From: Gammaproteobacteria bacterium
GTDB lineage: Bacteria; Pseudomonadota; Gammaproteobacteria; Ga0077554; Ga007554
DNA length: 46,404 bases
Reading direction: 5' to 3'
NCBI GenBank assembly: GCA_020053945.1
Contig: JAGVME010000032.1
Span: 1 to 46,404 of the forward strand
The notes beneath the pieces were generated by a model. That model was not told the DNA's origin, searched no databases, and saw only the letters and a list, made by a program, of their open reading frames with translations. Position 1 is the stretch's first letter; each line of letters starts with the position of its first letter. Shown in pieces: positions 6,126 through 31,950 of the stretch. The position numbers were made by a program, and so were the translations under genes.

Positions 6126-6190
6126 TGTCATCTCGACCGCAGGGAGAGACCTTAATAATCTTAAGATCTCTCCCTGCGGTCGAGATGACA
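6126..6190. repeat. Long palindromic (REP-like) element between mshC and mshD
   Basis: TGTCATCTCGACCGCAGGGAGAGA (6126-6149) and its exact reverse complement (6167-6190), 24/24 bp with a 17-nt loop. Confidence 0.85.
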
Positions 6191-20844: not shown

Positions 20845-22421
20845 CCACTCGCCCCCAGCGCCAACAACAACCCCCGCGCCTTGGCGCGTGTTTCCTGTAA
20901 CTCGGCGTCAGGAACGGAATCCGCCACAATCCCCGCGCCGACACGAAATTGCACATCACCATTTTCCACCAGCATGGTACGAATCAAAATATTCAGGTCC
21001 ATATTTCCATTATGATTCAGGTAACCCATTGCGCCAGTATATGGCCCACGTGGCGTCTGCTCCAGCTCGGCAATGATTTCCATGCAGCGCACTTTGGGGC
21101 AGCCCGTAATGGTGCCACCCGGAAACACCGCGCGTATCACTTGCCCCGGCGTCACCTCAGGGCGTTTAATGCCGCGCACATTGGAAACAATGTGATGCAC
21201 ATGGGCGTACGATTCCAGCACCATCAATTCATCCACCTGCACGCTACCGGGTACGCACACACGACCCAGATCATTACGTTCCAGGTCGATCAGCATCACA
21301 TGCTCGGCACGTTCTTTCGGATGCGCCAGCAACGCCTGTGACAACGCAACATCTTCATCACCCATCCCGCGCGGACGTGTACCGGCAATCGGCCGCACCT
21401 CAATGACATCACCCTGCACCCGCACCAGACGCTCGGGCGACGAACTCAAAATCGCGCTGGCCGCTCCCGGCGTCGTGCCTCCTGCGTCGTACATGGATGT
21501 ACAAGTGTCGCCAGAAGCAGGATACTGGAAGCGATCGGCACTAGCAGAACCCTTCGCTTCCGCTCTTCCCTGTGCGTCGCCCTTATAGAGCGCGACACCC
21601 GCAAACGGCGCGGGATTGTTTTTCCGCAAGCCCTGGTAAAGTTGCATATAACTTACATCAGGCGCCAACGTGGCGCGATATCCCCGCGACAAATTTACCT
21701 GAAACACATCGCCTGCCACGATATATTCCTTAATACGCCGCACACCGTCCAGAAAACGCGTGGGATCATCCTCCTGCAGTGCGCTTATCGGCGCGGCCAC
21801 TTCGGCGTGAGGTTCCACTGTTAAATGCTCAAGGTCATGCGCCATCCTATCGAGCAATACTGCATCTTCAGCCACAAGGAAGGTGCATTGGACATGATGA
21901 TCAACAATCACTGCCGCGGGAATACGTGTAGCAAACGCGATGGGCAGCCGTGATGTGCTGAGCGGCTCCTGCCCGCTTAGCTCCTCCCGCGCTTCCCCGT
22001 GCGTTTCGGCGCCGGCCAATGCCAAGCGCGGCTCAATTTGCGCTGCCAACCCATACCCCAGATAAATAAACCAGCCGCCGGAAAACGGCAACACAGGGTC
22101 CACCTCAGTAGATGACAGCGCCGCCTCATGCGCCCACGCATCGTCCAGTGCCTGCAAAAAATTCGCCGCACCGGGGACGAAGGGAGCTGCGAGCGCCAGA
22201 GAAGACGGGGACCCGGAAGTGGCAGAAACGTGGGACGTGGCATTACCCGCCAACACCAAGGTTTTGCCAGGAAAGGCGAACAGTATGTCATAACGCGCAG
22301 GCAGGATGCCGGGAGCGGCCGACGTACCATGCGCCACACTTTCGAGCAAAAAAGGGTAGCGTTCGGCATGGGCGCCATGCAAACGCAGAAGATCAGGATA
22401 GATAGGTAGTTGACGTATCAC
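20841..22421 (-). CDS. pabB: Aminodeoxychorismate synthase component I PabB, with inserted repeat-derived segments
   Basis: RRIKEYIVAGDVFQVNLSRGY, ILSSSPERLVRV, PIAGTRPRG, DLERNDLGRVC, PGGTITGCPKVRCMEII; 526 aa, with repeat-encoded SADRFQYPASGDTCTSMYDAGG. Confidence 0.92.
   Translation of the reverse strand: MIRQLPIYPDLLRLHGAHAERYPFLLESVAHGTSAAPGILPARYDILFAFPGKTLVLAGNATSHVSATSGSPSSLALAAPFVPGAANFLQALDDAWAHEAALSSTEVDPVLPFSGGWFIYLGYGLAAQIEPRLALAGAETHGEAREELSGQEPLSTSRLPIAFATRIPAAVIVDHHVQCTFLVAEDAVLLDRMAHDLEHLTVEPHAEVAAPISALQEDDPTRFLDGVRRIKEYIVAGDVFQVNLSRGYRATLAPDVSYMQLYQGLRKNNPAPFAGVALYKGDAQGRAEAKGSASADRFQYPASGDTCTSMYDAGGTTPGAASAILSSSPERLVRVQGDVIEVRPIAGTRPRGMGDEDVALSQALLAHPKERAEHVMLIDLERNDLGRVCVPGSVQVDELMVLESYAHVHHIVSNVRGIKRPEVTPGQVIRAVFPGGTITGCPKVRCMEIIAELEQTPRGPYTGAMGYLNHNGNMDLNILIRTMLVENGDVQFRVGAGIVADSVPDAELQETRAKARGLLLALGASG
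21459..21546. repeat. GC-rich repeat copy inside pabB
   Basis: AGTGTCGCCAGAAGCAGGATACTGGAAGCGATCGGCACTAGCA (21504-21546) matches the intergenic copy at 22507-22549 at 40/43; preceded by the GTACATGGATGTAC hairpin. Confidence 0.85.
22296..22330. repeat. Partial GC-rich repeat copy near the 5' end of pabB
   Basis: CGCAGGCAGGATGCCGGGAGCGGCCGACGTACCAT resembles GGCAGGATGCCGGTAGCGACCGCCGCACC in rfbD; encodes TSAAPGILPA. Confidence 0.55.
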
Positions 22422-22462: not shown

Positions 22463-22549
22463 CTGGAGGCAGCCGCTCCGGCTGCTGCGCCGCCCATGGA
22501 TGGGCCAGTGTCGCCAGAAGCAGGATGCTGGAAGCGACTGGCACTAGCA
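22463..22549. repeat. Intergenic GC-rich repeat copy between leuS and pabB
   Basis: Contains GCAGCC/GGCTGC and GCCCATGGATGGGC hairpins plus the AGTGTCGCCAGAAGCAGGATGCTGGAAGCGACTGGCACTAGCA core. Confidence 0.85.
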
Positions 22550-22628
22550 CATCCGTGTACGTCGAGTGTCAAAATACTGAAGAATGGGGGTGATAACAAG
22601 TAATGACGCCTTCCATTGCACAAACAAG

Positions 22629-26744: not shown

Positions 26745-28023
26745 TTACGGGGAGATGCCTGTTTCGTTCGTCATGGGGTGCCGCAGGTTCACCGCGCGCC
26801 ACATAGGTGGCGGCCACCAGATCACCCGTCACGTTTAGCGCGGTGCGGCACATGTCGAGAAAGCGGTCGATGCCCAAAATCAACGCCAGCCCTTCAACGG
26901 GAATGCCGAAGGTCACCAGGATCATGGCAATCACGGGCAACGAACCCGCGGGGATGCCTGCCGTGCCAATACCGCCCAGCACACAGATCACCATGATCAG
27001 AAACTGCTGGCCCAGACCCAGCTCCACACCAAACAACTGCGCAAGGAATAATACCGTGACGCCTTCAAACAATGCTGTGCCATTCTGGTTCATGGCAGAG
27101 CCTGCGGTGAGCACAAAACGGCTAACGTGGCGCGGCAGGTTCAAGTTTTCTTCAGCAACCTTGAGCGCCGTCGGCAAGGTTGCGCTGGAAGATGCCGTGG
27201 CAAATGCGGTGACCATGGCAACGCGCACACTGCGAAAAAACATCAGGGGTGATCGCCCGCCGAGAAAGCGGATCGCCAATGGGTACACCACAAACATTTG
27301 CAGACCCAGGCCCAGCAACACAACGCCCACATACGACATCAGATACGGTAATAGCTCGGTGCCGAGCCGCGCCGTCATGGTGAAAATCAATGCGGCAACA
27401 CCGTAGGGCGCAAGTTTTAAAACGCCATGGATCAGCGTCATGCTCACATCATAAAGACCTTCTATCGTTTCACGCAGGCGCAACGCGCCGGGGGTTTGCG
27501 TAAACGATAAGCCCACGCCGAAAATCAGCGAGAATAAAATCACGCCGATCATCTCGCCATTCGCGGCGGCCTTGATCGGGTTATCGGGAAACATCGCCAC
27601 CAGCAATGCCACGCCTGTGGTGTCGGGCGGTTTGGGCACGGTGAGCGTCGCACTGTTGGCCGTGGCCAAGCTGCGCAATTCTTCTGGCAAACCGGCGCCG
27701 GGGCGTATCAAGTTAGTCAACGCCATGCCGATCAATACGGCAATCAATGACGCCACCACGGTATAACCCAGTGTACGCGCGCCCATCCGCCCCAGATGTT
27801 TTACGTCCAGCCCGCAGATGCCAATCACCAGCGCCGAGAACAGCATCGGGATCACCAACATGAACAACAGGCGCAAAAAAATCTGCCCCGCAGGCAGGGT
27901 GATATTATCCACCACCCACGGCAACCACACCGTGTCATGCGCCAACGTTTTGACCACTAAACCCAATCCACCGCCGATTACCAGGCCAATGAGAATTTTC
28001 GCGCTTAAGCTGGCCTTATACAT
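26734..28023 (-). CDS. Dicarboxylate/amino acid:cation symporter (DAACS/SLC1 family)
   Basis: AFATASSSATLPTAL, GSAMNQNGTALFEGV, GTAGIPAGSLPVIAMIL. Start MYKASLSAKIL overlaps the rfbD stop (ATGA); the longer ORF in the track reads out of frame through rfbD. Confidence 0.9.
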   Translation of the reverse strand: MYKASLSAKILIGLVIGGGLGLVVKTLAHDTVWLPWVVDNITLPAGQIFLRLLFMLVIPMLFSALVIGICGLDVKHLGRMGARTLGYTVVASLIAVLIGMALTNLIRPGAGLPEELRSLATANSATLTVPKPPDTTGVALLVAMFPDNPIKAAANGEMIGVILFSLIFGVGLSFTQTPGALRLRETIEGLYDVSMTLIHGVLKLAPYGVAALIFTMTARLGTELLPYLMSYVGVVLLGLGLQMFVVYPLAIRFLGGRSPLMFFRSVRVAMVTAFATASSSATLPTALKVAEENLNLPRHVSRFVLTAGSAMNQNGTALFEGVTVLFLAQLFGVELGLGQQFLIMVICVLGGIGTAGIPAGSLPVIAMILVTFGIPVEGLALILGIDRFLDMCRTALNVTGDLVAATYVARGEPAAPHDERNRHLPVITP

Positions 28024-28973
28024 CAATTCTCCGCCAGCACCATTTCCAGTGCCGCCCTCCAATCGGGAAACGTGATGCCGAAGGTCTGCGCCAGTTGTTC
28101 GTTGCTCAACACTGAATAGGCAGGACGTGCGGCAGGTGTCGGGTAATCGTTGCTGGGAATAGGTTGTAATTGCGTGGTTGCACCCTCCAAAATGGCATTG
28201 GCAAAGCCGTGCCATGATGTTTGACCTGCGCAGCTCATGTGATACACGCCGCTGTGCTGCCGGATATAACCGGTCACACTCGCCGCACAGGGACGTGCAA
28301 GTGTCGCGGAAGGCAGGATGCCGGTAGCGACCGCCGCACCGGCATAATCGGTAGCGTTGTCCCGACCTCGATCCAACCCTTGCGCGACAATTTGCGCCGT
28401 CGCCTCGGCCAGCAGCCGACACCAAGTGGGCGCGCCGACCTGGTCATCAACCACTTTCAACAGTGGCCTTTCACTGGCTAGACGTTGCATGGTCAGCAAA
28501 AAGTTTTTGCCACGCCGTCCATACACCCAGGCGGTGCGCAGAATAAGGTGCGGCACATCCACGGCCTGAATGGCGCGTTCACCCGCCAGCTTGGAGCTGC
28601 CATAAATGTTTTGCGGATTCGGGATATCCTGTTCGGTATAGGGCGTATTTTTGCTGCCATCAAATACATAATCTGTGGAATAGTGTATTAATGCCGCGCC
28701 GAGGCGTTGTGCTTCTTGCGCCAGAATCCCCGGTGCGGTGCCGTTAATCGCCAGCGCCAGTGCCGGCTCGGTTTCAGCTTTATCCACCGCCGTATACGCC
28801 GCCGGGTTGACAATTAAATTCGGCTTTACCTCACCGCAGATTTTTCTTATCGCGTCAGGGTTGGCCAGATCCATGTCGGCCTGCCCCAGCGCGATGACCT
28901 CACCCAAGGTGGACAAGGTGCGTTGCAGTTCCCAGCCTACCTGACCGTTTTTCCCGGTGAGTAAAATTCTCAT
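28023..28973 (-). CDS. rfbD: dTDP-4-dehydrorhamnose reductase RfbD with inserted repeat-derived segment
   Basis: MRILLTGKNGQVGWEL, YSTDYVFDG, LRTAWVYG; insert GAAVATGILPSATLARPCAASV before GVYHMSCAGQTSWHGFA. Confidence 0.93.
   Translation of the reverse strand: MRILLTGKNGQVGWELQRTLSTLGEVIALGQADMDLANPDAIRKICGEVKPNLIVNPAAYTAVDKAETEPALALAINGTAPGILAQEAQRLGAALIHYSTDYVFDGSKNTPYTEQDIPNPQNIYGSSKLAGERAIQAVDVPHLILRTAWVYGRRGKNFLLTMQRLASERPLLKVVDDQVGAPTWCRLLAEATAQIVAQGLDRGRDNATDYAGAAVATGILPSATLARPCAASVTGYIRQHSGVYHMSCAGQTSWHGFANAILEGATTQLQPIPSNDYPTPAARPAYSVLSNEQLAQTFGITFPDWRAALEMVLAEN
28280..28342. repeat. GC-rich 51-bp repeat unit (plus the start of a second) inside rfbD
   Basis: TCGCCGCACAGGGACGTGCAAGTGTCGCGGAAGGCAGGATGCCGGTAGCGA followed by CCGCCGCACCGG. 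Confidence 0.85.
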
Positions 28974-29529: not shown

Positions 29530-30405
29530 TTAAAAAATCCGTTCTTTCAATAACCCGAGCAAATAGGCGCCATAACCATTCTTTGCCAAGGGCTGCGCCA
29601 AGGCTTCCAATTGGCTGGCGCTGATGTAGCCTTTGCGGTAAGCGATTTCTTCGGGGCAGGCGATCTTGAGTCCCTGACGCTTTTCGATGGTCTGGATAAA
29701 CAGCGATGCTTCCAGTAACGATTCGTGCGTGCCGGTATCCAACCACGCCATGCCGCGCCCCATCACTTGCACATCCAGTAAACCCTGCGTGAGATAGTGA
29801 CGATTGACATCGGTGATTTCGAGTTCACCGCGTGGCGAAGGACGGATGGCGCGGGCAATATCGACGACCTGATTATCATAAAAATACAGGCCTGTGACCG
29901 CATAACGCGATTTCGGAACGGTGGGCTTTTCGACGATGCTGAGGGCTTTGCCAGCCGCATCAAACTCAACGACGCCATAGCGCTCAGGGTCTTGCACCGG
30001 GTAGGCAAAGACGGTGGCGCCCGTTTTCTTTTGCGCGGCGTCCAGCAGTTGTGGCGATAAATCATGGCCGTAGAAAATATTGTCGCCCAACACCAGCGCA
30101 CATGAACCGTCACCAATAAAATCACTGCCAATAATAAATGCCTGTGCGAGGCCATCGGGCGAGGCTTGTACCGCATAGGTGATGCTGAGTCCCCACTGCT
30201 GGCCATCCCCCAACAATTGTTCAAAACGCGGCGTGTCCTGGGGGGTGGAAATGATGAGAATATCGCGGATCCCCGCCAGCATGAGGGTAGTCAGCGGATA
30301 ATAGATCATGGGTTTATCATAAACCGGCAACAATTGCTTGGACACCGCCTGGGTGACGGGATACAAACGGGTGCCGGAACCCCCGGCGAGAATGATGCCT
30401 TTCAT
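29530..30405 (-). CDS. rfbA: Glucose-1-phosphate thymidylyltransferase RfbA
   Basis: [61 protein letters not shown]. Confidence 0.96.
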
Positions 30406-31604
30406 GGAATGGCTCCTGGGTTGTGGGGGGTATTTGTGCCGGTTCGGTTGGCATAATTCTGCGCCACCCAGTGCTGGTAATTGCCGCTGGTGACATTCCC
30501 TACCCAAACTTTATTGTCCAGATACCAGCGCACGGTCTTGCGCAAGCCGGTTTCGAAGGTTTCCTGGGGCACCCAGCCCAGGTCGCGCGCGATTTTGCGG
30601 GCATCAATGGCATAACGGCGGTCGTGGCCGGGACGGTCTTTGACGTAGGTGATGAGTGATGCGTGGGGGACATGCGCCGCATCAGGGCTATATTCATCAA
30701 GAAGGGCGCACACGGTATGCACAACATCGAGGTTGGTTTTTTCATTCCAGCCACCAATGTTATAAACCTCGCCAATTTTGCCCTGGGCCAATACGGCACG
30801 GATCGCCGCGCAGTGATCCCCCACATACAACCAGTCGCGGACATTTTGGCCGTCGCCATACACCGGCAAAGGGCGGCCTTGGGTGGCGTTAAGGATCATC
30901 AGGGCAATGAGCTTTTCCGGAAATTGGTACGGGCCGTAGTTGTTGGAGCAGTTGGTGGTTAAGGTGGGCAGGCCGTAAGTGTGGTGATAGGCGCGCACCA
31001 GATGATCGGAAGCGGCCTTGGAAGCGGAGTATGGGCTGTTTGGGGCGTAGGGGGTGGTTTCGCTGAACGGCGGATCCTGCGCGCTTAGGGAGCCGTAAAC
31101 TTCGTCGGTGGACACATGCAGGAAACGGAACGCGGCTTTTTCATCGCCCGCTAAAGTGTTCCAGTAAGCGCGCGCCTCTTCGAGGAGATTAAAAGTGCCT
31201 ACAACATTCGTTTGGATAAAATCGCCGGGGGCGTGGATAGAACGGTCGACATGGCTTTCTGCGGCAAAATTCACTATCGCGCGGGGGCGGTGGGTAGCAA
31301 GTAACTGCCGCACCAACACCCGGTCGCCAATATCACCTTGCACAAAAATATGCCGGGAGTTACCCTGCAGGCTGGTCAGGTTATCCATATTCCCGGCATA
31401 GGTCAGCTTGTCCAGATTCACGACTGAATCCGCCGCACACGGAGGTGCCAGTGGCGTGGAAGGCAGGATGCCGTGAACGGCCGCCGCACACGGAGGTGGC
31501 AGTACTGCCCCAGGCCGGGTGCCGGAAGCGTCCGCCTCCTGGGCGATCCAGTCCAACACAAAATTCGACCCAATAAAGCCTGCACCACCTGTGACTAGAA
31601 TCAT
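30402..31604 (-). CDS. rfbB: dTDP-glucose 4,6-dehydratase RfbB with a repeat-derived insertion near the N-terminus
   Basis: [54 protein letters not shown]. Extra segment between IAQE and [13 protein letters not shown]. Confidence 0.95.
31430..31536. repeat. Tandem pair of the 51-bp GC-rich repeat inside rfbB
   Basis: Unit 1 31430-31480 and unit 2 31481-31531, both starting CCGCCGCACACGGAGGTG, followed by CCGCC. Confidence 0.88.
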
Positions 31605-31950
31605 CCCCGTTTCCTCCTTTTGTTGAAATTCCATAAACATCCCCTACCCCTACCCTTCAGGCAGGAGGCATATTCCCTGTTATTTGTGCGGTGCCGCAAA
31701 TGACAGGAAATGATGATAATCAACGCTGAGCCAAAATGGTTGCCCTGAGGAACCGAATAAATTTAACCCATGCAAAATTAACTACTTTTAAATCAGCACC
31801 TCAGGATCATTCAACAATTTATCTTAAGCAATAGTTTAGCATGTTGCCTACCTTCGGCTGGATCATTTCCAACGCCTGAGGCAAAGGCAAGCCACCGCGA
31901 TGAGGCGAAACTTCAATTATTTTTAAGGGTTATGCATTTTTTAAAATTCG

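Follow-up and report, generated by a model that had tools for sequence, protein, structure and literature searches.

In this work we report a 51-bp repeat that, with good confidence, we regard as a small non-autonomous mobile element of the "protein-coding palindromic element" kind, like the RPEs of Rickettsia, and that probably moves as single-stranded DNA. The copy from which the analysis started lies in the pabB gene and is a genuine insertion. The DNA analysed (the window) comprises the 46,404 nucleotides of contig JAGVME010000032.1 in assembly GCA_020053945.1, a gammaproteobacterial metagenome bin of 2.14 Mb in 155 contigs that is 86% complete (G000). The bin falls in the GTDB order named after the MAG Ga0077554, for which the name "Ca. 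Siderophiliales" has been proposed (PMC10993476); the host bacterium belongs to a lineage of iron-oxidisers. A simple repeat search gave five copies in the window and BLAST gave 43 in the genome, while a covariance model (E<=0.01) returned 135 matches to the unit, a number that includes several overlapping entries and partial halves of composites. With this many matches and the strong pair covariation described below, the repeat family is far beyond chance in its own genome.

Alignment of 39 copies defined a basic unit of 51 bp, or 17 codons, with sharp edges: GTCGCTCCCGGCATCCTGCCTCCCGCGACACTAGCACATCCCTGTGCGTCG. It folds as two hairpins (GTCGC..GGCA-TCC-TGCC..GCGAC, then GCAC..GTGC), the first having an outer stem GTCGC/GCGAC around GGCA-TCC-TGCC. 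Of 507 pair cells 96.1% are paired, 39 cells are altered on both sides compared with 9.6 in shuffles, and pairing falls to 17-53% when the partners are slid against each other. The consensus is also the minimum-energy DNA fold (z=-4.6), so that covariation and folding together identify a palindromic, structured repeat in the manner of the RPEs. The initial annotation had pointed out a length divisible by three, and this was borne out, since 242 of the 264 full units are exactly 51 bp long. The longer variants have an extended loop, and 15 of 17 are multiples of three, which is suggestive only, the variants being related copies. Among 144 units the end is GGCG in 58 and GTCG in 48, and ATCG also occurs. 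Mosaics were seen at three loci (L022 1-130, L039 4400-4520 and around L166 1889), where units have further short hairpin modules (CCATGGATGG; TTCGACAAAAAATGCTCCTGCATTTT) joined to them or set within them, and the window holds one further hairpin between ORFs (Table 1) that possibly represents another dispersed family. No Rfam match was obtained within the window.

The copies in the window and their host genes are listed in Table 1. Both the repeat search and cmsearch found the repeat in pabB where the initial annotation had placed it. The site was right but the proposed extent (21459-21546) was not, as the inserted DNA is a 120-bp stretch for which pabB of two same-genus species provides a gap-free empty site. 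Read from the sequence, it consists of a plus-strand 69-bp unit in two parts, 21460-21484 and 21536-21579, with a minus-strand 51-bp unit nested between them; a similar 120-bp composite is found in glgB at L179. The pabB products of G002 and G001 match the window protein over residues 1-283 and again over 322-526, and in them the two matching parts follow each other directly; PabB homologues have a short turn at this position, as had been supposed. The minus-strand repeat is translated as DRFQYPASGDTCTSMYDA in pabB and as VATGILPSATLARPCAA in rmlD, and in rmlB each repeat encodes a 17-residue peptide; the translations agree with the earlier statement that pabB uses a frame other than that of rmlD and rmlB (rfbD and rfbB). 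The rmlB insert is made of two abutting head-to-tail units (in coding order 31482-31532, then 31431-31481), and exact 51+51 tandem arrays of this kind occur in rmlB, L134 and L136. In rmlD a further 27 bp (28332-28358) of uncertain origin are likewise missing from G002. The N-terminal region of pabB with the possible remnant is missing from the homologues of G001, G003 and G006 in alignment. In G003 and G006, which represent other genera of the family, pabB (L207, L209) appears to carry a copy elsewhere, in the variable N-terminal part.

Table 1 Features of the window and further loci referred to in the text.
Feature	Position, locus or organism	Strand	Basis and remarks
pabB (aminodeoxychorismate synthase component I), host gene, 526 aa	20841..22421	-	NCBIfam NF006563, E=1.3e-177, above cut-off; Pfam PF00425
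120-bp (40-codon) pabB insert	21460..21579	.	missing from pabB of same-genus G002 and G001, junction gap-free
51-bp unit nested in pabB insert	21485..21535	-	cmsearch 64.5 bits
51-bp unit in spacer upstream of pabB	22487..22537	-	cmsearch 73.9 bits; inverted partner ~22504-22565, 26.6 bits
Possible degenerate remnant in pabB N-terminal codons (SAAPGILPARYD)	22299..22328	-	weak: repeat family D3; cmsearch 21.8 bits at 22247-22319, E=0.025
rmlD (rfbD), host gene	28023..28973	-	TIGR01214, E=7e-100, above cut-off
51-bp unit in rmlD	28281..28331	-	cmsearch 74.7 bits; missing from G002 (alignment)
rmlB (rfbB), host gene	30402..31640	-	TIGR01181, E=6e-147, above cut-off
102-bp (34-codon) rmlB insert	31431..31532	-	missing in four relatives; net 102 bp vs G002
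Near-perfect 30-bp inverted repeat between ORFs (TGTCATCTCGACCGCAGGGAGAGACCTTAA)	6126..6190		97% complementary, 5-nt loop
Shared-insertion pairs	L350/L165, L338/L031, L344/L168, L319/L011, L333/L174
Y1 (RAYT-like) loci flanked by long GGGGTCA-type inverted repeats	L297, L301, L304, L305, L306, L292
Isolate copy in UvrA (uvrA)	Thermomonas
Isolate copy in MnmA (mnmA)	Arenimonas metalli
Isolate copy in PDH E1-alpha (pdhA)	Methylomonas LW13
Isolate copies in HsdM-like genes	Nitrosomonas eutropha, Methylomonas koyamae

For a wider view of the insertions, we listed 44 host ORFs that contain high-scoring units and compared their flanks with two genomes of the same genus. Both flanks were homologous to one same-genus coding region for 34 of the 44 ORFs, in the same frame for 33. 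The net difference between filled and empty alleles was exactly 51 bp in 17 cases and 48 bp in two; the others were 60, 66, 102, 120 or 135 bp, or 0 or 6 bp where the site was shared. In most cases a species of the same genus has the site unoccupied. It is clear from these empty sites that the unit, like the RPEs, has been inserted in frame into multiple conserved protein genes, among them those for RecN, RhlB, RecG, GlyS, ValS, PepA, DnaG, RecJ, GlgB, CysS, GltX, SMC, WaaA, QueE, QueC and phosphoglucomutase (PGM). Comparison with solved structures places two of the inserts mid-domain, in DnaG between a variable loop and YDRFRDR, and in MnmA of Arenimonas metalli in the loop after the FM(Q/K)NWDD strand. 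The ORF calls were mechanical, and at least the sdhA copy and one L166 copy lie at gene edges or in spacers, not inside proteins.

We then considered frames and the preference for genes, counting a unit as inside an ORF when the open frame ran for at least 40 codons on one side and 30 on the other, and for 150 in all. By this measure 71% of 52 units are inside ORFs, compared with 70% of 2,367 random 51-mers from the same DNA, so genes are entered as often as random positions and coding DNA is not avoided. The copies are thus not almost exclusively intergenic, the finding that the initial annotation had named as one that would speak against its proposal, and the empty-site alignments lie in genes. 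Of the 44 full units, the 30 in long ORFs fall into frame classes of 11, 7, 6, 4, 2 and 0, and the encoded peptides are wholly different with frame and orientation. The suggested compatibility with nearly any frame therefore holds for five frames and both orientations, while the sixth class is empty. It was also correct that the consensus is open in all three frames one way and in two of three the other way, but this does not amount to a special depletion of stop codons: the consensus has no more open frames than its dinucleotide shuffles (P=0.63), and in the commonest subfamily a CTAG at unit positions 31-34 closes two of the six frames. The 44 units have on average 4.93 of six frames open compared with 4.53 in shuffles, only a slight excess, and the units are related and not independent. 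Stop-codon depletion as a special property was rejected, the consensus not going beyond composition. Being GC-rich and 17 codons long, the unit usually leaves the reading frame intact, whichever its orientation and in five frames, and these two properties are enough.

The family extends well beyond the window's own genome. Relatives of the genus and family gave 34, 96, 16, 1, 57, 43 and 16 matches under stricter filters than those behind the 135 matches above, so that copy number differs sharply among them. In a gammaproteobacterial sample 39 of 291 genomes, spread across many families, had a match at E<=1e-6, and an exact-pattern scan of GTDB genomes gave at least 106 stretches, nearly all from gamma- or betaproteobacteria among those listed. 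The pattern was also seen in records labelled Klebsiella pneumoniae and Phycisphaerae (L065, L077), which are likely misbinned or mislabelled contigs. Cultured isolates carry one to five copies each, several of them within genes (Table 1), and a diverged 51-bp copy lies inside a primase gene of a Lonsdalea plasmid. In several isolates (L059, L080, L091, L092, L096, L114) the element is found within or next to type I restriction-modification genes (hsdM/hsdS-like), which might serve as vehicles for its horizontal transfer. A search for phage carriage gave one viral contig and no phage record with the repeat, on which grounds spread by phage was rejected, and a search for plasmid carriage gave a single match, the one in the Lonsdalea primase gene, weak and in-gene.

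As to the chemistry of insertion, no excess flank identity for k=2-9 was seen across 144 non-tandem units, i.e. no target-site duplication was detected, and many of the empty-site alignments are gap-free (51-bp). Both observations differ from what a DDE-type MITE with its target duplication would show. In the 5' flank of the 18 empty sites whose alignments have three gaps or fewer, G is preferred at -4, G or T at -3 and a purine at -1, and in the flanks of all 144 units C or T at -2 and G at -1 are strongly enriched, with weaker preferences on the 3' side. The 5'-side target preference can be written G(G/T)YR and is not one strict tetranucleotide. Hairpin ends, a lack of target duplication and a 5'-side target preference are thus found together, as in elements of the IS200/IS605 type. 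Single-strand transposition by Y1/HUH-like enzymes has been described for IS200/IS605 and TnpA-REP (PMC8266576), and the insertion pattern of the unit would fit this mode of movement.

The presence of Y1 genes (PF01797), seen in 22 of 23 genomes, does not follow that of the repeat. A single one of 26 Y1 loci has a copy within about 160 bp; this is L303, where the Y1 gene is broken and the distance is about 157 bp. At a second locus the distance is about 0.9 kb. Eight Y1 genes were examined, and six of them bear long GGGGTCA-type inverted terminal repeats of their own, unrelated to the unit, and some loci flanked in this way contain tandem repeat copies of 17, 23 or 76 bp; these genes resemble the "TIRtrons" described earlier (PMC3733652). 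The recurrent neighbour gene families were ABC ATPases, FAD-linked oxidases, HsdM/HsdS, aminoacyl-tRNA synthetases and PDH E1, with no clear transposase cluster. A cognate transposase was found neither among the Y1 genes of the 26 loci nor among these neighbour families.

Several other explanations have to be weighed against a selfish protein-coding element. The REPs described so far are mostly extragenic, and those placed within the N-terminal part of a gene frequently prove to be annotation errors (PMC3733652), so the unit might be an ordinary extragenic REP-like repeat seen in over-called ORFs or behind misplaced starts. A few copies do sit in spacers, such as the one upstream of pabB and that upstream of sdhA. 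However, the one-frame alignment of both flanks to a single same-genus protein in 33 of 44 ORFs, and the mid-domain position of the DnaG and MnmA inserts, refute this reading for the class as a whole, and we consider it very improbable. Short-read assemblies are broken by repeats, and in a bin as fragmented and incomplete as this one chimeric joins could be suspected. To such an assembly or binning artefact we give next to no credence: the same gene is found on both flanks, several sites are also filled in the independently assembled G002, and in-gene copies are present in cultured isolates, in complete sequences and in the Lonsdalea plasmid primase. The inserts could also be kept by selection, as adaptive linker peptides or as a regulatory RNA or DNA hairpin. 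For the five insertions cleanly shared by G000 and G002, identity is 97% inside and 91.5% outside (p=6e-4), and two of these copies are 51/51 identical despite 90-92% flank identity, which favours function and speaks against a purely neutral passenger. The higher conservation may, however, be due to constraint, to conversion between copies or to a search that favours well-kept ones, and it comes from five sites found with a model-based search; the peptides moreover differ wholly, the hosts are unrelated and the majority of sites are unoccupied in a species of the same genus. Retention by selection appears quite improbable.

Mobilisation as a classical REP by a RAYT (TnpA-REP) agrees with the presence of Y1 genes, the hairpins, the lack of target duplication and the copy near the broken Y1 gene, and retains a small but real chance. 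Neither end of the unit has a GTAG tag, however, and adjacency does not support a RAYT as mobiliser, as Y1 genes occur regardless of the repeat, the other Y1 loci lack an adjacent copy and the terminal repeats of most Y1 genes examined are unrelated to it. Unlikely as well, in our estimate, is a new transposition system with an enzyme yet to be found, in which a 51-bp hairpin has coding DNA as a main habitat, targets a site like its own tail to give in-frame tandem arrays, grows in multiples of three and, once fixed, is conserved above the surrounding gene through a benefit of hairpin or peptide to the host.

Under the preferred reading of a non-autonomous protein-coding palindromic element, the unit would be moved in trans as a single-stranded hairpin, by a transposase of the Y1/HUH type or another that leaves no target duplication. 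It inserts precisely and is found as single units, exact head-to-tail arrays and nested composites. At its 3' end the unit carries GTCG or GGCG, similar to the preferred target, and this likeness may account for the tandem arrays, the next unit entering beside the 3' end of an earlier one. The added 17-40 residues are, judged from sequence, presumably for the most part tolerated passengers in loops and linkers, and the element would therefore be selfish DNA to which coding sequence offers a habitat.

The closest known systems are the RPEs and the Wolbachia WPEs ("protein-coding palindromic repeats"), short palindromic selfish DNA found in frame in many unrelated conserved protein genes, with several copies per genome (PMC10969869, PMC2229807). 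RPEs are described as 105-146 bp long with terminal repeats of about 12 bp and reside in intracellular alphaproteobacteria, and one RPE-bearing guanylate kinase is reported to be translated and still active (PMC2229807). The 51-bp unit shares with RPE and WPE its in-frame presence in many unrelated conserved genes, a likeness of working principle, by description, and not of family membership. It differs from RPE as a two-hairpin unit of environmental Gammaproteobacteria that uses five frames and has exact tandem and nested forms; at 51 bp it also lacks the RPE length with its long terminal inverted repeats, and only nested composites reach about 120 bp. GTAG- and CGTC-tagged REPs are short hairpins forming monomers, dimers and clusters, with intragenic cases in Opitutus, Thauera and Thioalkalivibrio, where DNA repair genes, uvrA for instance, stand out as hosts (PMC3733652), and the unit resembles them in all these respects, including uvrA. 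Unlike GTAG REPs it lacks a terminal GTAG (its ends being GGCG, GTCG or ATCG) and flanks no RAYT gene as in a REPtron. CGTC REPs have a single 8-9 bp stem in which A-T pairs come first, whereas the unit has two GC-first stems and shows CGTC only in copies ending in GTCG; it is also, unlike REPs, not mainly extragenic. MITEs with intragenic forms (ERIC, the 107-bp Correia/NEMIS, YPAL) are non-autonomous, sometimes fused in frame, about 100-200 bp long and in several cases have target duplications (PMC2229807); the unit has the non-autonomy and the in-frame fusions in common with them but is 51 bp long with no target duplication detected. We found no described 51-bp repeat of this sequence in the literature, the figure sequences of PMC3733652 and subscription papers being outside the search, and it is likely that no earlier paper deals with it. 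The unit is best regarded as a new variant of protein-coding palindromic elements, outside any named family.

Mobile elements able to enter genes and leave them unbroken are an uncommon source of new protein segments, and one open to testing. Work on them has centred on obligate intracellular alphaproteobacteria, for which relaxed selection offers a ready explanation, and the pattern is here found in environmental Gammaproteobacteria, with dozens of filled and empty allele pairs between same-genus species at about 90% flank identity and with cultured isolates that carry single copies in UvrA or MnmA. With these allele pairs and isolate copies, tolerance and the chemistry of insertion can be tested directly, as can the way 17-residue insertions spread through proteomes.
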